Source of the DNA: Flavobacteriaceae bacterium | Lineage (GTDB): Bacteria > Bacteroidota > Bacteroidia > Flavobacteriales > Flavobacteriaceae | Reading direction: 5' to 3' | Assembly: GCA_030726725.1 (NCBI GenBank) | Contig: JANRDC010000027.1 | Location: 46,601 to 96,650, forward strand | DNA: 50,050 bases | Shown: one piece after another, positions 3-13,301 of the stretch | Position numbering within the stretch: position 1 is the stretch's first letter | How the letters are laid out: every line of letters starts with the position of its first letter | Made by a program: the position numbers and the translations under genes | The notes under the pieces: model-generated | Seen by the model: the letters and a program-made list of their open reading frames with translations, nothing else | Databases searched by the model: none | Told to the model about the DNA's origin: nothing

Positions 3-3000
3 ACCGCTTCCGGAGCAGTTTTAGATCTTCAGCTTTCTTATGAGTTATTCGGTCAGCCGATACACCGTGCACCTCTGGTGATGGTGAATCACGCCTTGAC
101 CGGCAATTCACATGTAGCTGGTCCAGATGGGTGGTGGAATAGCTTGATCGGTCCTGGTTTAGTGATCGACACAGATAAGTACACGGTGCTGGCCTTTAAT
201 ATTCCAGGCAATGGGTACGATGGATTTGTCATCGATAATTACAAAGACTTTATCGCCCAAGACATAGCCAGAATTTTTTGGTGGGGTGTAGATCAGTTGG
301 GCATACAGGAAGTATTTGCCTTGATTGGTGGTTCACTAGGTGGAGGGATTGCTTGGGAGATGGCCGCATTGGCCCCAGAGCGCATCGGTCATTTAGTTCC
401 TGTCGCTTCAGATTGGAAGTCGACGGATTGGTTGATCGCCAATTGTCAGATTCAAGAACAGTTTTTGCTGAACTCTAAACAGCCTGTGCACGACGCCCGC
501 ATGCACGCCATGTTGTGTTATCGCACACCTGAGTCGTTTAAACAACGCTTTGGACGCTCAACCAACGAAACACTCAATGTCTTTAATGTGGAGAGTTGGC
601 TAACCCACCATGGAGAAAAGCTCCAACAGCGTTTCCAGTTGTCCGCGTATAAGTTGATGAACCAGCTGTTGCGATCCATCGACATTACCCGCGGCGGCCG
701 CGATCCATTTGTGCAATTCAAAGACAGCAAAACGCACATCCATATTATCGGCGTGGACTCTGATTTATTTTTCACCGCACAGGAGAATAAAGACACGTTT
801 AAACAACTCGCCCAGGCCAACAGTCGGGTGACCTACGGAGAAATAAATTCTTTGCATGGCCACGATGCTTTTCTGATGGAATACCAACAGATGGAGCGGT
901 TGTTGGGAGATATTTTTGGGACAACCAAAAAGCTAGAAAAGATTACCGTTTTGAAGTTTGGGGGCAAATCCCTGGCCAATGGAGCAGGGTTAGACCGAGT
1001 TTTGGATATTATTCAAGAAAAGGCTCAGGCCCGTATTCCCTTTACAGCGGTATTGTCCGCTCGAGGTAAGGCGACGGACCAGTTGGAATCTTTATTGGCT
1101 GAAGCCGCTTCAGGCCAATCCGTTCAGAACGCACTGGAGGCGTTTAAACAGGAACAAGAACAGCCCTTGCCATCTGGATTCTTAAGTGAAGAGTTTGCCT
1201 CGATCCAACAAATTCTCGACGGGGTAAGATTGATCGGAGACTACAGTTTAAAAACCAAAGACCAGTTGCTGGCCTTTGGAGAATTGATGGCTGTAAAAGC
1301 GGTGGTATACCTGTTGCAACAAAGAGGGGTGCCTGCACAAGCCATCGATGCGCGCACCTTGATCAAAACCAATAGTGTTTATGGGAATGCCCAAGTGATT
1401 GAGCGTATTTCTCGACAAAATGTCGAAGCTGCTTTTGCAGCGTTGCCCCAGGACACAGTAGCCATTTTTACTGGATTTTTGGCGTCCTCTTTGGACAATG
1501 AAACCACTACTTTAGGCAGAAATGGTTCTAATTATTCCGCAGCCTTGCTTGCTAATTTTCTGGATGCTAAAGAGTTGCAGAATTTCACCCATGTAGATGG
1601 GATTTTCACAGCCAACCCCGAGTGGGTGTATGATGCACAAAAAATTGAACAGCTTTCCTACAGCGAAGCTAATGAGCTCGCCAATTTTGGTGCTCAAGTA
1701 CTTCACGCAAAAACCATTATACCGCTGATTGAGAAAAATATTCCCTTGCGCATTCTCAATACCTTTAATCCGGACAGTGACGGGACGCTAATTTCAGCAG
1801 TACAATCTGCTCAGGGAATAAAGTCTTTGTCGGTGATCGAATCAGTGACTTTGATCAACCTTGAGGGAAGGGGACTATTGGGAAAAGTAGGGGTGGATGC
1901 CCGTATTTTTAAAGCCTTAGGGGATGCTGGAGTGAGTGTGAGTATCATTTCTCAAGGATCATCGGAACGAGGTATTGGATTGGTCGTGGCTCATCAAGAT
2001 GCCACCAAAGCGATCATCGCTTTGGAAAGGGAGTTCGAGCATGACTTTTATGCCCAAGACATCAACAGCATATCCGGCGTAGATCAGGTATCCGTGTTGT
2101 CCATCATCGGACAGGATTTAAGCACATTCCACAAACCCTACAATGCATTGATAAAAAATGGGGTGATCCCTATGTTGTTTAACAATACCGTCACAGGCAA
2201 AAACGTCAGTTTGGTATTGAAAAAACAAGACTTGCACAAAGCGCTCAATGTGGTACACGGAGAGATTTTTGGTCAAGCTAAAAAAATAAACATCGCTGTT
2301 TTTGGTGTGGGTAATGTAGGAGGTACGCTTGTCGACCAGATTGTTCAAGCAGCACAAAAGATTGAGGAGCGCAAAGGGATTAAGCTGCAATTATTTGCCT
2401 TGGCCAATTCGCAAAAAATGCTCTTCAATGCGCAAGGTTTGCAAGGGGATTGGCGGAAGGCTTTGGGGGAACAAGGCGTCGCTTATGATTTAGAGGCGCT
2501 TTGCGCCTACGCCCAAAGTCATCATCTAGAGAACCTCATTCTGGTGGATAACACCGCGGATGCTCGTTTTGTGAAAAATTACCCCAAAATGATCGCGGAG
2601 GGATTTGATTTGGTCTCCTCGAACAAAATTGCCAATACGTTGGGGTTTGACTTTTATACGGAGCTCAGGTCTGTGCTGAAACTGCACCAGAAACAATACC
2701 TGTATGAAACCAATGTTGGAGCTGGTTTGCCACTGATTGACACCATCAAATTATTGCATCTTTCCGGAGAAAATATCACCAAAATACGCGGTGTGTTCTC
2801 AGGTTCTTTGAGTTATATTTTTAACCATTTTTCTATAGAGGACCGACCGTTTTCTGAAGTGGTGCGCGAAGCGTTGGAAAAAGGTTATACCGAACCAGAT
2901 CCTCGTGAGGATTTGTCTGGAAATGATGTGGGTAGAAAACTGTTGATTTTGGCACGTGAATTAGACCTGGCCAATGAGTTCTCAGACATTTCCATAGAAA

Positions 3001-3353
3001 ATTTGATACCCCTGGACTTACAACAGGTGGACAAACAGACTTTCTTGTCCAGGCTGACTGAGTTAGACCAAGCATTCCAATCGATCAAAGACCAACAAAA
3101 ACCCGGTCATGTACTGCGTTATCTAGGCCAAGTTGCGGGTGATCTGCAGCAGACTAAAGGCGAGCTCAGCGTTTCCTTGGTTTCTGTGCCCCAAGAGAGT
3201 ACATTAGGGCAGATGAAGGGTTCTGATTCCTTAATTGAGATATTTACAGAATCTTACGGAGATCAACCCTTGGTCATTCAAGGAGCAGGTGCCGGTGCTG
3301 CGGTGACCGCACGCGGTGTATTTGGAGATATTTTAAGAATTGCAGATCGATAG
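3..3353 (+). CDS. metX-thrA: Homoserine O-acyltransferase (MetX) fused to bifunctional aspartokinase / homoserine dehydrogenase (ThrA); 5' end outside window
   Basis: The reading frame is open from base 3 and MetX-like residues precede the first possible start (GTG at 78), so the true start lies outside the window. The N-terminal part is an alpha/beta hydrolase of the MetX type: nucleophile elbow GGSLGG (Ser codon at 333), a likely catalytic Asp in VDSDLF (762) and His in HGHDAF (861). An aspartokinase domain follows from about 945, with KFGGKS, LGRNGSNY and THVDGI, then ACT repeats. A homoserine dehydrogenase begins at about 2285 (FGVGNVGG) and ends with the ThrA-like GAGAGAAVTARG. Three activities of the aspartate-to-methionine/threonine route are thus on one chain. 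KFGGKS has Lys where KFGGTS has Thr. metZ begins 2 bases after the stop. I infer acetyl rather than succinyl transfer only from the family name; substrate is not provable here. Confidence 0.93.
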   Translation, partial: TASGAVLDLQLSYELFGQPIHRAPLVMVNHALTGNSHVAGPDGWWNSLIGPGLVIDTDKYTVLAFNIPGNGYDGFVIDNYKDFIAQDIARIFWWGVDQLGIQEVFALIGGSLGGGIAWEMAALAPERIGHLVPVASDWKSTDWLIANCQIQEQFLLNSKQPVHDARMHAMLCYRTPESFKQRFGRSTNETLNVFNVESWLTHHGEKLQQRFQLSAYKLMNQLLRSIDITRGGRDPFVQFKDSKTHIHIIGVDSDLFFTAQENKDTFKQLAQANSRVTYGEINSLHGHDAFLMEYQQMERLLGDIFGTTKKLEKITVLKFGGKSLANGAGLDRVLDIIQEKAQARIPFTAVLSARGKATDQLESLLAEAASGQSVQNALEAFKQEQEQPLPSGFLSEEFASIQQILDGVRLIGDYSLKTKDQLLAFGELMAVKAVVYLLQQRGVPAQAIDARTLIKTNSVYGNAQVIERISRQNVEAAFAALPQDTVAIFTGFLASSLDNETTTLGRNGSNYSAALLANFLDAKELQNFTHVDGIFTANPEWVYDAQKIEQLSYSEANELANFGAQVLHAKTIIPLIEKNIPLRILNTFNPDSDGTLISAVQSAQGIKSLSVIESVTLINLEGRGLLGKVGVDARIFKALGDAGVSVSIISQGSSERGIGLVVAHQDATKAIIALEREFEHDFYAQDINSISGVDQVSVLSIIGQDLSTFHKPYNALIKNGVIPMLFNNTVTGKNVSLVLKKQDLHKALNVVHGEIFGQAKKINIAVFGVGNVGGTLVDQIVQAAQKIEERKGIKLQLFALANSQKMLFNAQGLQGDWRKALGEQGVAYDLEALCAYAQSHHLENLILVDNTADARFVKNYPKMIAEGFDLVSSNKIANTLGFDFYTELRSVLKLHQKQYLYETNVGAGLPLIDTIKLLHLSGENITKIRGVFSGSLSYIFNHFSIEDRPFSEVVREALEKGYTEPDPREDLSGNDVGRKLLILARELDLANEFSDISIENLIPLDLQQVDKQTFLSRLTELDQAFQSIKDQQKPGHVLRYLGQVAGDLQQTKGELSVSLVSVPQESTLGQMKGSDSLIEIFTESYGDQPLVIQGAGAGAAVTARGVFGDILRIADR

Positions 3354-3355
3354 TC

Positions 3356-4534
3356 ATGAAGGATAAAGCATTTGAAACACAAGCCATAAGAACGCAAACT
3401 GAACGCTCTGCTTTTTTGGAGCATTCTACCCCCATGTACCTGACTTCGAGTTTTGTCTTTGAAGATGCAGAAGACATGAGGGCTTCATTTGCCGAGGAGA
3501 AAGACCGCAATATCTATTCGCGTTATTCCAATCCGACTACCTCTGAGTTTATCGAGAAGGTGTGTTTGATGGAGGGAGCTGAGGCGGGTTTTGCCTTTGC
3601 TTCTGGCATGGCAGCGGTGTACACTACTTTTGCAGCTCTGTTGCAATCGGGAGATCACATACTCTCGAGCGCTTCAGTTTTTGGATCTACCCATAGTTTA
3701 TATTTTAATTTTTTCCCCAAATGGGGCATAACGACCTCTTTGTTTGATGTAAATGCCTCTAAAGCGGAAATCGTCGCTAAAATACAACCCAACACCAAGG
3801 TGATTTATGCGGAATCTCCGACCAATCCCGGCGTAGATTTGATCGACTTATCTCTTTTGGGAGAAATCGCTCAAGAGCACGGTTTGATCCTGATTATCGA
3901 CAACTGCTTTGCCTCGCCTTATTTGCAAAAACCATTGGCCCACGGAGCGCATTTGGTCATTCACTCCGCGACTAAACTCATGGATGGACAAGGCCGGGTT
4001 TTGGGCGGAATTACTGTGGGTCGGGCAGACTTGATGGATCAAGTGTACCGATTTGCCCGAATCACGGGTCCCGCTATGTCCCCGTTTAACGCTTGGGTAC
4101 TGTCCAAAAGTTTGGAAACCTTGGCAGTGCGAGTGGATAGGCACTGCAGCAATGCATTGGCTTTGGCGACTTATTTGGAATCACATCCACAAGTAGCACA
4201 AGTAAAGTATCCATTTTTGCCGTCACACCCCAAATACGACATCGCTCAAAAGCAAATGAAAGCCGGTGGCGCGGTGGTGGCCTTTGAGTTAAAAGGTGGA
4301 TTGGTAGCTGGACGACAGTTTTTTGACGCCATTGAGTTGCTTTCTTTATCTGCTAACCTAGGGGATACGCGCAGTATTGTCACCCATCCCGCTTCAACGA
4401 CACACAGCAAGTTGACGCCCCAGGAGCGCGCAGCTTCAGGCATTGGAGAGGGTATGATCCGCGTGTCTGTAGGATTAGAACACATCGATGATATTCAATC
4501 GGATATCGCACAAGCATTAGACAAGATTTTATGA
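3356..4534 (+). CDS. metZ: O-acylhomoserine sulfhydrylase, PLP-dependent Cys/Met metabolism family
   Basis: 392 residues, the normal length for the trans-sulfuration enzyme family. The PLP-binding lysine is K207 in [16 protein letters not shown], a form typical of MetZ sulfhydrylases. D182 (IDNCFA) is the expected residue facing the pyridine nitrogen. YSRYSNPT near residues 54-61 is the conserved N-terminal motif. The enzyme would turn the O-acylhomoserine made by the upstream MetX domain directly into homocysteine with sulfide, so no cystathionine step is needed. It lies 2 bases after metX-thrA and overlaps the next gene by 4 bases (ATGA), so it is almost certainly co-transcribed. Assignment as MetZ rather than cystathionine gamma-synthase rests on the GQGR motif and the operon. 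Confidence 0.9.
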
Positions 4535-5532
4535 AAAAACCAGATATCAGATTATTGTTAAAAGAACGGGTGTTGGTGTTGGATGGAGCCATGGGCACCA
4601 TGATCCAAAGACACAAATTCACAGAAGCTGATTATCGAGGCGATCGATTTGCGGACTGGAAATCTCCTTTACAGGGCAACAATGATTTGTTGTCATTGAC
4701 TCAATCAGCAGCCATCAAAGACATACACGCTCAGTACGCAGCTGCTGGTGCAGATATCCTGGAGACCAACACTTTTTCTTCAACCACTATTGCGATGGCG
4801 GACTATCATATGGAGTCTTTGGTCAAGGAAATCAATATGGTTTCTGCACGGCTGGCCAAAGAGGTCGCAGATGAGTATACCGCAATGCAACCCGACAAAC
4901 CTCGTTATGTGGCAGGAAGTATAGGTCCGACCAACAAAACAGCGAGTTTATCACCTGAGGTCAACGATCCAGGGTATAGAGCTATAGATTTTGACGGATT
5001 GCGCATCGCCTACAAAGAACAAGTAGAGGCGCTGATGGATGGTGGAGTAGACTTATTGCTGGTGGAAACTGTATTTGACACCTTGAATGCAAAAGCCGCT
5101 TTGTTTGCGATTCAAGAGGTTAAAGAAGAGCGCAAGAGCGATATACCTGTGATGGTGAGTGGAACGATTACCGATGCTTCAGGCCGTACGCTCTCTGGAC
5201 AAACTGCTGAGGCATTTTTGATCTCGATCGCGCACGCTGATCTGCTGTCTGTTGGCTTTAACTGCGCCTTAGGGGCCAAACAGTTAACACCTCACTTGGA
5301 GGTGCTCGCCAAAAAAGCACCATTTGCCGTTTCTGCCCACCCCAATGCAGGTTTACCTAATGCCTTTGGTCAGTACGATGAATCTCCAGAAGACATGGCC
5401 GATCAGATTCAAGATTATTTAGACCTGAATTTGGTCAATATTATCGGTGGTTGCTGCGGAACTACCCCAGATCATATCGAAGCGATTGCTCGGATTGCTG
5501 CTCAAGCCAAACCCAGAAGCACCCAAATCTAG
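4531..5532 (+). CDS. metH: Methionine synthase, homocysteine-binding subunit (N-terminal part of split MetH)
   Basis: 333 residues that match only the homocysteine S-methyltransferase barrel of MetH. The start motif [11 protein letters not shown] lies at residues 16-26. The three zinc-binding cysteines are present: C245 in GFNCALG and C308-C309 in [10 protein letters not shown]. The domain activates the thiol of homocysteine for methyl transfer from cobalamin. The gene stops with TAG at the natural boundary before the folate domain, and the remaining domains are encoded by the next gene in a different frame, 4 bases downstream. Both pieces have intact motifs and their own starts, so this is a split enzyme and not a broken gene. 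Split MetH is known in Bacteroidota (from memory). Confidence 0.92.
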
Positions 5533-5536
5533 ATCG

Positions 5537-8221
5537 ATGAGTACAACATCCCCTAAATACCTACACTTATCTGGCTTGGAACCACTCGTGGTGACTCCAG
5601 AAACCAATTTTGTCAATGTTGGTGAACGCACCAACGTAGCAGGATCAAAACTTTTCTTGCGCCTGATCAAGGAGGAGCGCTTTGATGAAGCACTCGCCAT
5701 TGCCCGGGAACAAGTAGAAGGTGGCGCCCAAATCATCGATGTAAACATGGATGATGGATTGATCGATGGCAAGAAAGCGATGGTCAATTTCCTCAATTTG
5801 GTGGTGGCTGAACCGGATATCGCCAGGGTACCCATCATGATCGATAGCTCCAAATGGGAGATTATTGAGGCTGGTTTGCAAGTGGTTCAAGGCAAATGCG
5901 TCGTGAATTCTATCAGTCTTAAAGAAGGGGAAGAAGCGTTTTTATGGCAGGCACGCCGTATTCGACAATATGGAGCGGCTGTGATCGTTATGGCCTTCGA
6001 TGAGGTGGGGCAAGCGGATAACTACGAGAGGCGTTTAGAAATAGCAGAGCGCTCTTATCGACTGTTGGTGGATCAAGTTCATTTTCCTCCTGAAGATATT
6101 ATTTTCGACCTCAATATATTTCCAGTGGCTACCGGTATGGATGAACACCGCCGCAACGCCATTGATTTTATTGAAGCTACTCGCTGGGTGAGGCAAAATC
6201 TACCTCATTGCTCCGTGAGTGGAGGTGTGAGCAATGTTTCCTTTAGTTTTAGAGGAAACAACCCTGTGCGAGAGGCCATGCACTCCGTGTTTCTATACCA
6301 CGCCATCAAAGCGGGTATGAATATGGGTATCGTGAATCCTTCCATGTTGGAGGTCTATGACGATATTCCTAAAGACTTACTCGAACACGTAGAAGACGTA
6401 GTGCTGGATCGCAGAGAGGACGCCACTGAACGTTTACTCAATTTCGCTGAGTCCTTCGTAGGAACAGCAAAAGAAAAGGTACAAGAAAATCAATGGAGGG
6501 ATGAGCCCCTTCAAGAACGCATCACCAGAGCATTGGTCAAGGGAATTGACGCCTATATTCTGGAGGATGTGGAGGAGGCGCGTTTGGCTTCAGAAAGACC
6601 TATACACGTGATTGAAGGTCATTTGATGACAGGTATGAATGTGGTGGGTGATCTCTTTGGCAGTGGAAAAATGTTTCTTCCTCAAGTAGTCAAGTCTGCT
6701 CGAGTGATGAAAAAGGCAGTGGCTTATTTATTGCCTTTTATCGAAGAAGAAAAACAATCCCTGGCTGGTTATGATGCCACAGCTTCTCAAGCAGCGGGCA
6801 AAATATTGATGGCGACCGTTAAGGGAGATGTGCACGACATTGGAAAAAATATAGTTTCTGTGGTGCTCGCGTGCAACAATTATGAAATTATTGATTTAGG
6901 GGTCATGGTCCCCCCAGAGAAGATACTGGATACCGCCCAACAAGAGGGGGTTGATGCCATTGGCTTGAGCGGATTGATCACGCCCTCTTTGGATGAAATG
7001 GTTCATATCGCTAAAGAAATGAAGCGAAGAAATATGACGATGCCGCTTTTGATCGGCGGAGCTACGACCAGTAAGGCGCATACTGCGGTAAAGATCGCAC
7101 CAGAGTATCCCTTTACGGTAGTTCACGTCAATGATGCTTCCCGCGCAGTAACGGTAGTGGGCAACTTGCTTCAGCCAGAAACCCAAGAAACCTACAAAGA
7201 ACAAATCAAATCGGAGTATATCGATTTCGCGGAGAAATTTAATAACCGAGGCAGCCACAAAGAGTATGTTACCTTGGCCGAGGCCCGCAGTCAAAAACAG
7301 CTTTTGGATTGGTCTGCTTATGCAGTACCCGCACCCAAAAACAAAGGGGTACACGTGTTGGACATAGATTTGCAAGATTTGGTGCCTTTGATTGATTGGA
7401 CCCCATTTTTCAGGTCATGGGACCTACACGGAAGATATCCCGATTTGTTTTCGGATGAGATAGTCGGCGCACAAGCCAAAACATTGTTCGAAGATGCCCA
7501 AGGGGTACTCGAAATTTTACTCCGAGAAAAAAAGCTTAGCGTCAAAGGTATTTACGGATTGTTTGAGGCCTACAGCGATGATCAAGACGACATAGTACTG
7601 CCGCAAAACGGAGCTGCGTTCCGCACCTTGCGCCAACAAGCCAAAAAGAAGGAGGGTATTGCCTACATAGCTTTGTCTGATTTTATCGCCCCTAAAGAAA
7701 CCGGTATCACAGATTATGTGGGGTGCTTTTGTGTCAGTGCAGGATTTGGTGCAGATGAGTGGGCTCAAGAATACGAAGCCCAACTCGACGATTACAACTC
7801 GATCATGGTCAAAGCGATTGCGGACAGATTTGCCGAAGCAGCGGCAGAATGGCTGCACTTAAAAGTGCGCACTGATTTCTGGGGTTACGCCTCAGATGAA
7901 TCCTTAGAGATCAATCAAATTATCGGTGAGCAATACCGAGGCATTCGTCCAGCGCCAGGCTATCCGGCTTGTCCTGACCATTTGGAAAAGCAAACCATTT
8001 GGCAATTGCTCGACGTTGAAGGTGCGATCGGTGTGCGTTTGACCGAAAGCTTGGCTATGTGGCCAGCAGCTTCCGTATCGGGATATTATTTTGCACACCC
8101 GGATGCTCGCTATTTTGGTTTGGGCAAAATTACCCAGGATCAAGTTGCCGATTTTGCGCGCAGAAAAAACATTCCATTGGCCGAAGCTCAAAGATGGCTG
8201 TCACCTAATATTGCTGATTAA
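5537..8221 (+). CDS. metH: Methionine synthase, folate-, cobalamin- and SAM-binding subunit (C-terminal part of split MetH)
   Basis: 894 residues from the ATG at 5537. An upstream in-frame start at 5447 would overlap the previous gene and add a non-homologous tail, so it is rejected. Domains in order are a pterin-binding barrel ([14 protein letters not shown] near residues 16-29), a cobalamin-binding cap, the B12 Rossmann domain with DVHDIG (lower axial ligand His433), and the reactivation domain with [12 protein letters not shown] near residues 804-815. It moves the methyl group from methyl-tetrahydrofolate through cobalamin to the homocysteine held by the partner subunit, and it is repaired with SAM. 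The cell therefore needs B12. metF, which supplies the methyl-folate, is the next gene. Confidence 0.93.
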
Positions 8222-8231
8222 TCGTTTTGTT

Positions 8232-9185
8232 ATGAAAATCACAGACCACATTAAAAACGCACAGGGAAAAACGCTTTTTTCCTTTGAAATCGTCCCGCCT
8301 GTCAAGGGAAAAAGCATCGATGAACTATATGCCAATATAGACCCATTGATGGAGTTTAAGCCCCCATTTATCGATGTGACCACCTCCAGGGAAGAAGTGG
8401 TCTACACGCAAAAATCGGGCTTATACGAAAAGAAAATCACCCGCATGCGTCCAGGAACTGTGGGTATATGTGCTTCGATCAAACACAGGTACAACGTGGA
8501 TACTGTGCCACACGTATTGTGCGGTGGGTTTACTCAAGAGGAAACAGAATACATGTTGATCGATCTTCAATACTTGGGCATTGACAATTTGATGGCACTC
8601 CGCGGGGATTCTATGCGCGATGAGGCTTATTTCGTCCCTACCAATGGCGGACATCCCTATGCGGTGGATTTGGTGCGGCAAATCGATCAGCTCAATCGCG
8701 GTCAGTTTTTGCACGACCAGCCTCAATCTCCGCTCGCCACTCCATTTTGTATTGGGGTAGCTGGATATCCTGAAAAGCACATGGAAGCGCCTTCTATGGC
8801 TTCTGATTTAAAAAGGTTGAAAGAAAAGGTGGATGCTGGAGCGGATTACGTGGTCACACAGATGTTCTTTGACAACAGCAAATATTTTGCCTTTGTGGAG
8901 AGCGCCCGGGCTATGGGTATCGATGTGCCCATTATTCCAGGGATCAAGCCGCTTGCCGTGCAAAGACACCTAAGTATTCTTCCTCAGGTATTTAAAATCG
9001 ATCTCCCCCAGGATTTAGTAGATGCTGTAGAATCTGCCAAAGACAATGCAGGAATCAAGCAGGTAGGTATCGAGTGGGCTATTGCCCAATCCAAAGAACT
9101 AAAGGAAGCAGGAGTACCTGTATTGCATTACTATTCGATGGGTAAAAGCGAAAATATCGCACAAATCGCAAGTGCTTTGTTTTAA
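8232..9185 (+). CDS. metF: 5,10-methylenetetrahydrofolate reductase
   Basis: 317 residues from the ATG at 8232. The longer in-frame start at 8091 lies inside metH and is rejected. The N-terminal FSFEIVPP is the family's opening strand with its catalytic Glu. The barrel continues with DVTTSREE, LMALRGD, and GADYVVTQMFFDN, which are typical of MetF. It reduces methylene-THF to methyl-THF with an FAD cofactor and feeds the MetH subunit encoded 10 bases upstream. It closes the methionine operon: no gene follows on this transcript before the promoter and attenuator of the aromatic operon. No clear terminator hairpin was seen directly after it. Confidence 0.94.
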   Translation: MKITDHIKNAQGKTLFSFEIVPPVKGKSIDELYANIDPLMEFKPPFIDVTTSREEVVYTQKSGLYEKKITRMRPGTVGICASIKHRYNVDTVPHVLCGGFTQEETEYMLIDLQYLGIDNLMALRGDSMRDEAYFVPTNGGHPYAVDLVRQIDQLNRGQFLHDQPQSPLATPFCIGVAGYPEKHMEAPSMASDLKRLKEKVDAGADYVVTQMFFDNSKYFAFVESARAMGIDVPIIPGIKPLAVQRHLSILPQVFKIDLPQDLVDAVESAKDNAGIKQVGIEWAIAQSKELKEAGVPVLHYYSMGKSENIAQIASALF

Positions 9186-9208
9186 TTGAGCTATTTTTTT
9201 ACCGGAAG

Positions 9209-9239
9209 TTTGGCAGTGTCGATATAAATGATAATTTAG
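9209..9239 (+). promoter_or_regulatory. Promoter of the aromatic amino acid operon
   Basis: TTTG at 9209-9212 is followed after 19 bases by TAATTTAG at 9232-9239. This fits the Bacteroidota consensus TTTG-N19-TAnnTTTG with one mismatch (A for T at the seventh base of the -7 box). A start site around 9246 would give a leader RNA of about 130 bases ending in the terminator at 9354-9378. Confidence 0.6.
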
Positions 9240-9261
9240 CCGCTTAATTGCAAACAACATC

Positions 9262-9327
9262 ATGAACAACACTTTCTTTTACAGCTATTTTTACTTCTAT
9301 GCAGATAGAAGCAAGGGGCTGTTGTAA
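9262..9327 (+). CDS. Phe/Tyr-rich leader peptide of the pheA operon attenuator
   Basis: A 21-residue open frame, ATG at 9262 and TAA at 9325, encodes a peptide whose residues 5-13 read FFYSYFYFY: four Phe and four Tyr in nine residues. It sits about 16 bases after the predicted transcription start and 58 bases before pheA. The products of the downstream operon lead to exactly these two amino acids. This is the signature of a leader peptide whose translation senses charged tRNA-Phe and tRNA-Tyr. A stable cellular function for the peptide itself is not expected. Confidence 0.85.
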   Translation: MNNTFFYSYFYFYADRSKGLL

Positions 9328-9378
9328 AGTGATTACTCAATCAAAATACTAAGTCCCGCTGATGCGGGATTTTTTTTT
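9294..9378 (+). promoter_or_regulatory. Attenuator RNA with alternative hairpins controlled by leader-peptide translation
   Basis: Three mutually exclusive pairings can be drawn. Region 1, CTTCTAT (9294-9300), covers the last Phe/Tyr codons and pairs perfectly with ATAGAAG (9305-9311). Region 2, GGGGCT (9315-9320), lies in the last codons of the peptide and pairs with AGTCCC (9352-9357, one G-U pair), extended by GC 9311-9312 with GC 9358-9359 around a two-base bulge. Region 3:4 is the terminator. Stalling at Phe/Tyr codons would free region 2 to form the antiterminator; finishing the peptide would cover region 2 and allow termination. The layout is like the enterobacterial trp and pheA attenuators. 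Pairings were drawn by eye; no energies were computed. Confidence 0.75.
9354..9378 (+). terminator. Intrinsic terminator of the pheA leader
   Basis: TCCCGC (9354-9359), loop TGAT, GCGGGA (9364-9369), then nine T (9370-9378). It ends only 7 bases before the pheA start codon, so it can only make sense as a regulated terminator. Confidence 0.9.
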
Positions 9379-9385
9379 AGCCCTG

Positions 9386-10213
9386 ATGAAAACCAAAATT
9401 GCCATTCAAGGAATTAAAGGATCCAACCATTATCAAGTAGCCCTTGATTATTTTGGCACGGACATAGCATTGGTAGACTGCGCTTCTTTTGATGCTTTGG
9501 TCCACAGCTTAGTCGATAAGCGCGCTGATTATGGCGTGATGGCCATCGAAAATTCAATCGCTGGTTCCATCATACCCAACTACGCTTTGATGGATAAATA
9601 TCAATTGTCGATTGTTGGAGAGTATTACCTCTCGATCCACCACCATTTAATGGCTTTGCCAGGACAGATCTTGGATGAAATCTCCGAGGTGCATTCTCAC
9701 CCCATGGCTTTGTTGCAATGCAATCAGTTTTTTTATGACTATCCGCAGATCAAATTGGTGGAAAGCGAAGACACGGCAGCCTCCGCCTTAGCGATTCAAC
9801 GCCATGGCTGGAAAGGGATCGCGGCTATCGCACCCAAGAGTTCAGCCGAATTATACGGTTTGGAAGTATTGGCAGATGATATTCAGACCATAAAAAATAA
9901 TGCAACCAGGTTTGTGGTGGTCACTGCCCAACAAAATGAATCGTCGATCGAGGGGGCCAATAAAGCTTCACTTCGTTTCGTTCTAGACCACAAAAGAGGG
10001 AGTTTGGCAGCGGTGTTAAATGCCCTGAGCGATTGTTCGATGAACTTGACAAAAATCCAGTCACTACCCGTCATTGATGTGCCCTGGAAATACGCATTTT
10101 TTGTGGACATCACTTTTGAAGAAACAGCAGATTTTGAGAAAGCAAAAGCTTTATTATCTATTATGGCTCACGAGTTTAAGGTATTAGGGGCCTATAAAAA
10201 TGCGCGATTATGA
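9386..10213 (+). CDS. pheA: Prephenate dehydratase
   Basis: 275 residues from the ATG at 9386. The in-frame ATG at 9362 lies inside the leader terminator and is rejected. The catalytic part opens with KIAIQGIKGSNH and has the conserved GVMAIENS. NNATRF carries the catalytic Thr (T174) with R175 and F176. An ACT domain follows from about residue 193 (ASLRFVLDHKRGSLAAVL), where Phe feedback binding is expected. The usual GALV and ESRP allosteric motifs read GSLA and QSLP here. It converts prephenate to phenylpyruvate and carries no chorismate mutase domain; that activity is on the fourth gene of the operon. Expression is predicted to be controlled by the Phe/Tyr attenuator immediately upstream. 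Confidence 0.93.
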   Translation: MKTKIAIQGIKGSNHYQVALDYFGTDIALVDCASFDALVHSLVDKRADYGVMAIENSIAGSIIPNYALMDKYQLSIVGEYYLSIHHHLMALPGQILDEISEVHSHPMALLQCNQFFYDYPQIKLVESEDTAASALAIQRHGWKGIAAIAPKSSAELYGLEVLADDIQTIKNNATRFVVVTAQQNESSIEGANKASLRFVLDHKRGSLAAVLNALSDCSMNLTKIQSLPVIDVPWKYAFFVDITFEETADFEKAKALLSIMAHEFKVLGAYKNARL

Positions 10214-11361
10214 GACAGACTGCTCGGAGATTAGCTCAGGTTTCGGAATATTATTTCTCTCAAAAATTGCGGGAGGTTCGCGCTTTAATTCAGCAAGGAC
10301 ACCCCGTGATTCAAATGGGAATCGGCAGTCCTGATTTAGCACCTGCCCCTGAGGTGATCCAGGCGATCAAAGAATCGCTTTCCGATCCAATGGCGCATCA
10401 GTACCAGAGTTATCAGGGGTTACCTGCGCTGAGGTCGGCCATCAGCGAATTTTACCAGACCCAATACGGTGTTTCGTTGGATCCTGAATCAGAGGTGCTG
10501 CCTTTAATGGGTTCCAAAGAAGGAATCATGCACCTGTCCATGGCCTATTTAAACGAAGGAGACCAGGTTTTGATCCCCAATCCGGGGTATCCTACCTACA
10601 CCTCTGTCACCCGTTTGTTGGGTGCAGAACCGGTTTATTACGACTTGACCGCCCAAAATAATTGGCTGCCAGATGTCAACGCCATAGCCGCTATGGACTT
10701 ATCTCGGGTTAAAATCATGTGGTTGTCTTACCCCCACATGCCTACCGGTGCCCATGCCACGGCAGCTGACTTACAGCCATTGATCGATTTGGCCAAGTCC
10801 CGTGGATTTTTATTGGCGATGGATAATCCCTACAGCTTTATCTTGAACAATCATCCGATGAGTATTTTATCTCTTCAAGGGGCTATGGAGGTCGCTGTGG
10901 AGTTAAATTCTCTGAGTAAAACGGCCAATATGGCCGGTTGGCGCGTGGGTATGATTTGTGGAAACCAGGAGCATCTGAAGGCAGTGCTCCAAGTGAAAAG
11001 CAATATGGATTCAGGTATGTTTTACGGGATTCAGCGGGGTGCCATCCAGGCGCTGAAGGCGCCCGCTTCCTGGTATGCTTCATTAAATGAGATTTACGCC
11101 TTGCGCAGAGATAAGGTTTGGGCTTTTGCTGAGGCCTTGGGTTGTGCGTTCGACAGAAACGCTGTGGGGATGTTTGTTTGGGCGCGACTGCCTGAAGGCA
11201 TCACAGACGAATGCGCATTTGTCGATCAGCTGTTGTATCAGCACCATATATTTATCACACCTGGCTCTATTTTTGGCAGCAACGGAGCTGGTTATGTGCG
11301 TTTTTCACTTTGTTTGGAAGCAGATTTAATCGACCAAGCAATTCAAAGAGTTAAGTCATGA
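10210..11361 (+). CDS. Class I/II PLP-dependent aminotransferase, probably acting on prephenate or phenylpyruvate/hydroxyphenylpyruvate
   Basis: 383 residues, fold type I aminotransferase. The PLP lysine is K237 in SLSKTANMAGWRVG; D205 (MDNPYS) should bind the pyridine nitrogen; RFSLC near the C-terminus holds the usual carboxylate-binding Arg. The motif that normally reads NPTG reads MPTG (M177), so the Asn that contacts the PLP oxygen is replaced. The gene overlaps pheA and tyrA by 4 bases on each side, so the product most likely performs the final transamination to Phe and Tyr. Substrate choice cannot be read from sequence, and an aspartate- or LL-DAP-aminotransferase-like activity is an alternative. 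Confidence 0.85.
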   Translation: MRQTARRLAQVSEYYFSQKLREVRALIQQGHPVIQMGIGSPDLAPAPEVIQAIKESLSDPMAHQYQSYQGLPALRSAISEFYQTQYGVSLDPESEVLPLMGSKEGIMHLSMAYLNEGDQVLIPNPGYPTYTSVTRLLGAEPVYYDLTAQNNWLPDVNAIAAMDLSRVKIMWLSYPHMPTGAHATAADLQPLIDLAKSRGFLLAMDNPYSFILNNHPMSILSLQGAMEVAVELNSLSKTANMAGWRVGMICGNQEHLKAVLQVKSNMDSGMFYGIQRGAIQALKAPASWYASLNEIYALRRDKVWAFAEALGCAFDRNAVGMFVWARLPEGITDECAFVDQLLYQHHIFITPGSIFGSNGAGYVRFSLCLEADLIDQAIQRVKS

Positions 11362-12215
11362 AGGTATTTTTTATCGGTATTGGATTGATCGGAGGGTCTA
11401 TGGCCCTTGAAATCAAACACAGAAATCCTCAGGCAATTTGTTATGGAATCAGCCGCAGTGAGCAAACATTGGACAAGGCTTTGGCCTTGGGTTTGATTGA
11501 TCACAAAGCGAGTTGGGCAGATTTGGCTCATGCGGATCTTGTTTTTTTGAGCATTCCAGTCGACGCTTCAGTCGATGCATTGCCCCGTATTTTGGATGTA
11601 ATTTCCGATCAGGCTCTGGTGGTCGATGCAGGTTCCACCAAACAAGCCTTGTGCGATGCTGTAGCCACCCATCCTAAGAGAAGAAACTATTTAGCGGCTC
11701 ACCCGATTGCAGGTACTGAGTTTTCAGGGCCTGAGGCGGCATTTTTGGGGTTATTTGCCCAGAAAACAATGATTGTATGTGAAGTGGAAAAAACCGCCTT
11801 TAAACTGCAAGAGAAAGCCATGGCGCTTTTCGCTGCTTGGGGTATGCGCATCCGCTACATGGATGCCGCAGCACACGACAAACACATCGCTTACGTGTCT
11901 CATTTATCACACATCAGCTCCTTTATGTTAGGGAAGACGGTGATTGAAAAAGAGAAGAATGAAAGCGATATTTTTGACATGGCTGGATCAGGTTTCGAGA
12001 GCACGGTGCGTTTAGCAAAAAGTTCTCCTGCGATGTGGACCCCAATTTTTGATCAAAACAAACAACATGTGGTGGTTGCACTACAAGAATATATTGCCAA
12101 TCTGGAAGCATTTAAATCCTTGCTCGAACAATCGGATTGCGACGCTATATATCAGCAAATGAGCGACACCAATAAAATCAAAGAAATACTCAACGGAATA
12201 CCCCTCAACAAATAG
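11358..12215 (+). CDS. tyrA: Prephenate dehydrogenase
   Basis: 285 residues. The NAD-binding Rossmann motif GIGLIGGS is at residues 6-13. AAHPIAGTEFSGP near residues 114-126 and SHLSHISSFML are typical of TyrA, with the conserved active-site His in each. It oxidatively decarboxylates prephenate to 4-hydroxyphenylpyruvate, the branch parallel to PheA. There is no fused chorismate mutase and no clear ACT domain in the short C-terminal part, so feedback control probably acts at the attenuator and the DAHP synthase instead. It overlaps the aminotransferase by ATGA and is followed 3 bases later by aroG. Confidence 0.92.
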   Translation: MKVFFIGIGLIGGSMALEIKHRNPQAICYGISRSEQTLDKALALGLIDHKASWADLAHADLVFLSIPVDASVDALPRILDVISDQALVVDAGSTKQALCDAVATHPKRRNYLAAHPIAGTEFSGPEAAFLGLFAQKTMIVCEVEKTAFKLQEKAMALFAAWGMRIRYMDAAAHDKHIAYVSHLSHISSFMLGKTVIEKEKNESDIFDMAGSGFESTVRLAKSSPAMWTPIFDQNKQHVVVALQEYIANLEAFKSLLEQSDCDAIYQQMSDTNKIKEILNGIPLNK

Positions 12216-12218
12216 ATT

Positions 12219-13301
12219 ATGGAAAATTCAAAGAAAATGAGAACCTGGCTCGACGAGATGAACCTGACCCACCCATTGGTGATCGCAGGACCTTGTAGTG
12301 CTGAAACTGAAGATCAAGTGCTTAAAATTGCACATGCGTTAAAAGACACGGATGTCAATTACTACCGCGCTGGTATCTGGAAACCGAGAACACGTCCTGG
12401 AAATTTTGAGGGTGTGGGCGCACTCGGCTTGAAGTGGCTCCAAAAGGTGCAAAAAGAAACTGGGATGAAAACAGCCACCGAGGTGGCCAACAGGGCTCAT
12501 GTTGAACTCGCTTTGGAGCACGATGTAGATTTGTTGTGGATCGGGGCTCGTTCCACGGTGAGTCCATTTATCATTCAAGAAATTGCTGATGCGCTTAAAG
12601 GGACCGACAAGATTGTGTTGGTCAAAAACCCGGTAAATCCCGATTTAGCGCTGTGGTTGGGGGCAATAGAACGCCTTTATGCAGCAGATATCAAAAATCT
12701 GGGAGTCATCCACCGAGGCTTTTCTACTTTTGAAAAAACCAAGTACCGCAATATCCCTGAATGGCAAATGGCCATTGAGTTGCAGTCGAAATTTCCGGAT
12801 TTGCCGATCATCAATGATCCATCGCACATCACTGGAAAAAGAGATATGATTTTTGACGTGGCACAAACAGCCTTAGACTTGAATTTTGATGGGTTGATGA
12901 TTGAAACCCACTGCGATCCAGACAATGCTTGGAGCGATGCAGCCCAACAAGTAACGCCAGAGCGTTTGGTAGAAATCATGCGCGACTTAAAAGTGCGCAA
13001 GGAGTCTGACCCTGAGGAGAAGTACAACAAAGAGTTGAGCAATCTGCGCGCTCAGATCGATATTATTGACAACCAATTGTTGGAGACCCTCGGAAAACGC
13101 ATGAAACTCGCAGAAGGAATCGGAGCCTTAAAATCCAAACACAATGTGGCTGTTTTGCAGTCGAGCCGTTGGAACGAGATTTTAGGACGCATGATTTTGG
13201 AAGGAGAGACCAAAGGATTGAGCGAGGAATTTGTGTTGCGCATGTTTAAAGCCATTCACCAAGAGTCGATTAATCACCAGGAAAAGGTCATCAAATCATA
13301 A
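12219..13301 (+). CDS. aroG: Bifunctional DAHP synthase / chorismate mutase
   Basis: 360 residues. Residues 1 to about 265 are a type I-beta DAHP synthase barrel, with VIAGPCSAE near the start, YRAGIWKPRTRPG, LWIGARSTVSPF, and the metal/substrate motifs DPSHITG and IETHCDP. The rest (from about residue 268, ELSNLRAQIDIID) is an AroQ-type chorismate mutase helix bundle with LGKRMKLAEGIG. One chain therefore supplies the first shikimate step and the chorismate-to-prephenate step used by both PheA and TyrA in the same operon. In related fusions the mutase domain also serves as the allosteric sensor; that is family knowledge and not shown here. A strong terminator follows 6 bases after the stop. 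Confidence 0.93.
   Translation: MENSKKMRTWLDEMNLTHPLVIAGPCSAETEDQVLKIAHALKDTDVNYYRAGIWKPRTRPGNFEGVGALGLKWLQKVQKETGMKTATEVANRAHVELALEHDVDLLWIGARSTVSPFIIQEIADALKGTDKIVLVKNPVNPDLALWLGAIERLYAADIKNLGVIHRGFSTFEKTKYRNIPEWQMAIELQSKFPDLPIINDPSHITGKRDMIFDVAQTALDLNFDGLMIETHCDPDNAWSDAAQQVTPERLVEIMRDLKVRKESDPEEKYNKELSNLRAQIDIIDNQLLETLGKRMKLAEGIGALKSKHNVAVLQSSRWNEILGRMILEGETKGLSEEFVLRMFKAIHQESINHQEKVIKS

Follow-up and report, generated by a model that had tools for sequence, protein, structure and literature searches.

What governs transcription of the aromatic operon that begins with pheA in this flavobacterial genome? The window, by which we mean the whole 50,050-nucleotide stretch of DNA analyzed, comes from contig JANRDC010000027.1 of a 1.73-Mb genome that is 98% complete. 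Its metF frame ends at position 9185, on the same strand as pheA, leaving an intergenic gap of 200 bases between the two genes. Enterobacteria provide the best-documented cases of leader-peptide attenuation, the trp/pheA-type logic among them, and the original prediction, made from the letters of the window, placed an attenuator of this type in the gap, sensing phenylalanine and tyrosine.

The genes downstream of the gap all lie on the forward strand. pheA (9386 to 10213) encodes a prephenate dehydratase (PF00800, 189.7 bits) whose nearest named relatives, among the 80 matches listed, are mostly from Flavobacteriaceae. It is followed by a gene for a class I/II aminotransferase (10210 to 11361; PF00155, 203.6 bits), by tyrA, encoding prephenate dehydrogenase (11358 to 12215; NF006307, 370.6 bits against a cut-off of 295), and by an aroG-like gene in which DAHP synthase is fused to a type II chorismate mutase (12219 to 13301; PF00793 and PF01817). 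Gene order was checked at 95 of the 124 family loci described below. It was pheA-aminotransferase-tyrA-aroG at 82, pheA-aroG at 10, pheA-aminotransferase-aroG at two and pheA-aminotransferase at one, the last being a short stretch; the homologues in these counts came from tblastn with the window's proteins, which may have missed diverged genes.

A probable Bacteroidota-type promoter could be read from the sequence at 9209 to 9239 on the forward strand. It consists of TTTG at 9209 to 9212, a 19-nt spacer and TAATTTAG at 9232 to 9239, the last close to TAnnTTTG, which we take to be the consensus of such promoters. The position of this box predicts a transcription start near 9246. At 115 of the 124 loci, a TA..TT[TA]G motif lay no more than 45 nt from the leader start, against 9.0 expected from shuffled sequences.

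Between this promoter and pheA there is a short open reading frame (9262 to 9327, forward strand) that encodes the peptide MNNTFFYSYFYFYADRSKGLL, 21 residues long, and a stop codon. Its aromatic codons occupy positions 5 to 7 and 9 to 13, giving eight within nine residues (9274 to 9300), exactly as first described. None of 5,000 dinucleotide shuffles of the intergenic region (9186 to 9385) yielded a frame with eight aromatics in 10 residues. Bacteria of this group start translation largely without Shine-Dalgarno pairing. When the RNA from 9246 to 9386 was compared with 200 shuffles, two of them folded equally well or better (z, −3.1).

Two hairpins follow from the same stretch. A perfect 7-bp hairpin on the forward strand, CTTCTAT/ATAGAAG (9294 to 9300 with 9305 to 9311), spans the last aromatic codons, where it had been predicted; it belongs to the minimum free energy fold and may act as a region 1:2 hairpin or a pause hairpin. 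An intrinsic terminator, also on the forward strand, extends from 9351 to 9378, with a 9-bp stem (9351 to 9372), a 4-nt loop and a T-run that ends at 9378, seven bases before pheA starts at 9386, so that the clean terminator claimed at this distance is indeed present. Region 2, the 5′ arm of the proposed antiterminator (GGGGCU, 9315 to 9320, forward strand), was located by covariation and nascent folding and lies within the leader frame. The core of region 3 (AGUCCC, 9352 to 9357, forward strand), located by covariation and folding, could partner either region 2 in the antiterminator or region 4 in the terminator. The antiterminator had originally been drawn as 9311 to 9320 with 9352 to 9359; its 6-bp core was recovered and its full extent was not. 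The 2:3 helix of the window is thus short, with one of its six pairs a G-U. An A/T-rich stem (9332 to 9343) stands between regions 2 and 3; judged by eye, it seems to recur in relatives with other sequence, and it may extend the antiterminator.

We then asked how widely this arrangement is kept in the family. The sample comprised 149 genomes, one per genus, of which 130 had a pheA homologue, the window included, and the upstream stretch was read for all 130. An aromatic leader with a terminator was found within 350 nt of pheA in 124 genera, and an aromatic leader anywhere upstream in 126. The leader lies farther than 350 nt upstream in relatives L037 and L141 (at −646 in L141). No aromatic leader was found within the 373 to 900 nt upstream of pheA in L148, L205 and L220, and in L219 a contig end leaves an upstream region too short for the leader to be judged, with a terminator-like hairpin kept. 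By eye, short GC-rich hairpin repeats separate the aromatic leader from pheA in L141, and repeated stretches fill the region upstream of pheA in the leaderless L205.

Upstream frames with at least six aromatic residues (F, Y, W) occurred in 124 of the 130 real regions versus 135 of 2,600 shuffles of the relatives' upstream regions (up to 350 nt each), and those with at least eight occurred in 102 versus 5. As a further control, we examined the stretches upstream of other long frames in loci L043 to L122. Here 25 of 597 had a frame with at least six aromatics, and 10 of these 25 were internal pheA starts with the leader itself inside the stretch. All 124 leaders contain at least two Phe and at least two Tyr codons, the means being 5.3 Phe, 3.5 Tyr and 0.7 Trp. 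This fits the proposal that one peptide would sense Phe and Tyr jointly, ahead of the operon described above, with its pheA, aminotransferase, tyrA and aroG-like genes. Among single-base differences at the F/Y codons of similar leaders, 289 were synonymous, 233 exchanged F and Y, and 205 led to other residues, counts in which the leader pairs are nonindependent. By codon position, changes in the leaders were distributed 26/34/40%, with the third position modestly in excess; exchanging F for Y alters the second position.

Evidence for the antiterminator came from covariation. We treated a permutation test on the 2:3 duplex as the main test because it requires no alignment. Regions 2 and 3 from the same locus gave a mean of −11.2 kcal/mol, compared with −8.5 when they were cross-paired and −5.1 in shuffled sequence windows, and none of 5,000 permutations matched the true pairing. 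Region-3 GTCCC was accompanied by region-2 GGG in 26 of 27 loci, GTCTC by GAG in 66 of 69, GTCCT by AGG in 9 of 13 (three more had GGG, possible by G-U pairing) and GTTCC by GGG, via G-U, in two of three, a tabulation that omits 12 of the 124 loci with other region-3 cores. The region-3 core has undergone at least 11 changes on the pheA tree. A comparison of the region 2 and 3 cores over independent pairs yielded two pairs only and had no power.

We set aside a MAFFT alignment of the full set of 124 segments. Region 2 seemed to be one base out of register between subtypes in it, and for this reason we aligned a subset of 42 loci, picked by eye for diversity, most rows of which were cut before region 4, the 3′ arm of the terminator. 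The sole helix that RNAalifold predicted for this subset was 2:3, with double changes at four of its five pairs; one middle pair was G-C in 22 sequences and A-U in 20. In an eight-pair version of the helix, 82.1% of cells were paired, compared with 75.2% for shuffles and no more than 45.5% for slid arms, and 39 cells carried double changes versus 14.8 in shuffles, a number that none of 500 shuffles reached. Two of the five measures taken on this version resembled the shuffles: six pairs had changes in both arms, a value that 81 of 500 shuffles also reached, and there were 15 further pair types, which 143 of 500 shuffles reached. Its outer pairs were frequently unpaired. The hairpin formed by the aromatic codons and the purine stretch that follows them also paired better within loci, at −5.8 versus −4.7 kcal/mol when permuted (0 of 5,000), and had at least five pairs at 123 of the 124 loci versus 65% of shuffles. 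Conserved aromatic codons and compensatory pairs, which the original prediction had proposed looking for upstream of pheA in related genomes, were therefore both found. The outcome that it had named beforehand as contrary, a terminator kept where aromatic codons or region-2 pairing are lost, was not borne out across the 130 genera, with leaders in 126 and a 2:3 pairing that covaries.

Is the switch spaced so that a ribosome could operate it? Region 2 lies wholly upstream of the leader stop codon at 99 of the 124 loci, straddles it at 16 and comes after it at nine. Because region 2 sits inside the frame, the peptide tail (KRGTGLL, KRNETLYV, etc.) appears to be written by the RNA switch in most relatives. 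We assumed a ribosome footprint extending 15 nt in either direction from the first P-site base. A ribosome of this size whose A site holds the stop codon would wholly cover region 2 at 117 of the 124 loci; one whose A site holds the last aromatic codon would leave region 2 wholly free at 108 and at least half free at all 124.

We also folded nascent chains of the window. Whichever of the eight aromatic codons held the stalled ribosome, predicted antiterminator formation was 0.82 to 0.99 at 3′ ends from 9356 to 9368; with the ribosome at the stop codon, it was 0.00 over the same range. The hairpin at 9294 to 9311, though conserved as a pairing, left region 2 unblocked in these folds. Without a ribosome, the antiterminator still formed at 0.50 to 0.99 (3′ ends 9358 to 9366), so that the folds do not predict strong termination when translation is absent. 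By 3′ end 9370, the values for the stalled states had dropped to 0.09 to 0.61. Equilibrium folding of the full-length RNA with the ribosome-covered segments masked showed no switch, the terminator having a P of at least 0.93 in every ribosome state. Folding with and without the ribosome, as originally suggested, thus reveals the switch in nascent chains, between stalled and stop states, but not in full-length equilibrium folds. Because equilibrium favors the terminator everywhere and the stalled-state antiterminator falls at 9370, the switch must be kinetic.

A short frame dense in aromatic codons, an intrinsic terminator between the leader and the first gene, a covarying and mutually exclusive antiterminator and a ribosome-compatible spacing were all found. 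With high confidence, we therefore read this element as a ribosome-mediated transcription attenuator that controls the pheA-aminotransferase-tyrA-aroG operon, and conservation of the leader in 126 of 130 genera together with 2:3 covariation supports the earlier reading of it as attenuation of the trp/pheA type. Translation of the leader would very probably decide whether the operon is transcribed. We observed the parts, their conservation, their covariation and their spacing in the sequences, and from them we infer a response to stalling and a termination event that would run as follows. RNA polymerase would start near 9246, and a ribosome would start translating the leader. A shortage of charged tRNA-Phe or tRNA-Tyr would stall the ribosome among the aromatic codons (9274 to 9300), leaving region 2 (9315 to 9320) free to capture region 3 (9352 to 9357) on its emergence; this pairing would delay or prevent the terminator, and the operon would be transcribed. 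If both charged tRNAs were plentiful, the ribosome would reach the stop codon (9325) and cover region 2, regions 3 and 4 would form the terminator, and transcription would end before pheA.

Other explanations of the same parts have to be weighed against this one. The terminator could be no more than the ordinary end of metF transcription, with the aromatic frame arising incidentally from T-rich spacer sequence; metF does end at 9185 on the same strand, and the region is T-rich. However, the interval from metF to the leader contains a promoter-like motif, the aromatic frame stands far above shuffles, and the leader-terminator pair is kept before pheA in relatives. We consider this origin highly unlikely, already contradicted as it is by the covariation of region 2 with the terminator arm. 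Control of pheA translation, by occlusion of the start site or by re-initiation, rather than of transcription termination, also seems to us very unlikely. It would suit the closeness of terminator and start codon in the window, where seven bases separate the T-run from pheA. The available text of PMC4833913 also puts forward re-initiation at leader peptides as a mechanism in bacteria, Bacteroidetes among them. Yet the distance from the terminator stem to the ATG varies from 5 to 132 nt among relatives (10th to 90th percentile, 8 to 65), the leader stop and the pheA start are 58 nt apart in the window, and a T-rich tail was present at 124 of 124 loci, this tail being a condition of the scan.

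A leader that binds a metabolite or a tRNA, as a riboswitch or T-box does, with the frame incidental to it, would explain why the leader RNA folds better than its shuffles. Against this, a search of the whole window with Rfam 15 returned no match at the gathering score to a T-box, a riboswitch or any other family, and what is conserved is a set of codons and a single covarying switch helix, with no binding core. We find such a leader scarcely credible here, and we continue with the ribosome-mediated attenuator.

Does the attenuator extend beyond the family? We scanned loci from outside it with a threshold of five aromatics, with gene starts chosen by rule and with only the loci that the searches returned, all of which makes the counts rough: in other families of Flavobacteriales, 8 of 23 loci had a leader with a terminator, as did 13 of 20 in other orders of Bacteroidia. 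Seven of the 15 order-level negatives fall in one family (f4) and six in 0.6-Mb genomes (f15). In other classes of the phylum, 1 of 26 loci cleared the filter; its duplex was weak (−4.7 kcal/mol), and we judged the case unconvincing. For the 22 outside-family loci, the 2:3 pairing energy was −14.2 for own pairs versus a permuted mean of −9.3, and none of 5,000 permutations matched it.

A Trp codon occurs in 84 of the 124 family leaders versus 20% of shuffled leaders; the window's leader is without one. Trp accounts for 3.0% of leader residues versus 0.39% of pheA residues, and Cys shows the opposite bias, at 0.39% versus 1.2%. Most of the Trp codons (80 of 85) are found 4 to 10 codons ahead of where the aromatic run ends, and the presence of Trp in the leader has switched state at least 24 times across the tree. 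This pattern suggests that Trp may be a third input of the leader. We are evenly divided over a broader scenario, in which an aromatic attenuator ancestral to Bacteroidia and class-wide would have read Phe, Tyr and, usually, one early Trp codon, ahead of an operon with both branch enzymes and DAHP synthase, the entry enzyme; the antiterminator arm inside the peptide would dictate its tail, and the lineage of the window would have been reduced to a Phe/Tyr sensor.

The E. coli pheL-pheA system (RF01859, Phe_leader) likewise has a short leader rich in Phe codons followed by a terminator and pheA, and its attenuator has an alternative antiterminator. pheL has Phe codons and none for Tyr or Trp, whereas the window's leader has Phe and Tyr codons and its relatives often have Trp as well. 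By eye, the GGGAGGC arm of pheL follows the stop codon, unlike the region 2 found here, which in 99 of 124 loci is wholly upstream of it. The RF01859 model scored 25.9 bits (E, 0.02) on the window, below its 55-bit gathering score, compared with 132.3 bits for the E. coli control. Multivalent leaders are known in enterobacteria from ilvGMEDA (Leu/Ile/Val) and thrABC (Thr/Ile), where likewise one peptide carries codons for several products of the operon; the set here is Phe and Tyr, with Trp in 84 of the 124 relatives. The Bacteroid-trp motif (RF01692) lies upstream of trp genes. It too is a cis-regulatory RNA of Bacteroidetes (PMC2864571), and it had no gathering-level match in the window. Leader-like short open reading frames have likewise been reported in Bacteroides thetaiotaomicron, with no aromatic operon named in the available text (PMC7366714).

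In Flavobacterium psychrophilum, a 2021 study described structured 5′ regions before pheA and hisG that are present in other Flavobacteriaceae genera and lack Rfam hits, and it found strong hints of leader-peptide attenuation upstream of amino-acid operons in general (PMC9723704). Its pheA element, which concerns the same gene and family and is presumably the one analyzed here, is given without a peptide, codons, an antiterminator or a wider spread in the text available. Because of that study, the mechanism class and the existence of something before pheA in Flavobacteriaceae are already in print. The attenuator is known in kind; the additions made here are the Phe/Tyr specificity, the breadth and the covariation. 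Our literature search found no description of the Phe/Tyr/Trp codons, of covariation or of a wider spread, and no experimental proof of an aromatic pheA leader in Bacteroidota; the supplements of PMC9723704 and a 2010 comparative paper by Lopatovskaya and colleagues lay outside that search, and an earlier prediction in the latter is possible. The comparison makes a strong case that a large, less studied group shares the attenuation logic with a multi-aromatic peptide of its own. The roughly 124 natural variants offer material on the coevolution of codon choice, ribosome footprint and switch helices and bear on whether a lone Trp codon supplies a third input.

Two other genes of the same genome are preceded by leaders of this kind. 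The His-rich MNFKQHHHHTTILLQTR, with HHHH, precedes a HisG-family gene (L299), and the Trp-rich MNNKNKFSWWWNNLQQNL, with WWW, precedes a chorismate-binding enzyme (L300, a 508-codon frame) that is probably trpE-like. By eye, each is followed by a hairpin and a T-run that resemble a terminator. Neither locus had an Rfam match at an E value of 1 or better, and two other chorismate-binding genes of the genome have no such leader upstream. Because leaders are present before these HisG-family and chorismate-binding genes too, peptide attenuation looks habitual in the source organism.

We also made some minor observations on the methionine genes near the locus. A 1,091-residue frame at 78 to 3353, whose start is uncertain, joins a MetX-like homoserine acyltransferase (residues 2 to 278) to a bifunctional aspartokinase-homoserine dehydrogenase I (290 to 1090). 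MetH, methionine synthase, is split between adjacent frames at 4531 to 5532 and 5447 to 8221, which cover profile positions 11 to 337 and 338 to 1230. Just 5′ of the window, on the same contig, a SAM-II riboswitch (RF01726; 54.9 bits, gathering score 44) lies at positions 167 to 266 of L303, and the frame downstream of it resembles, by eye, SAM synthetase.
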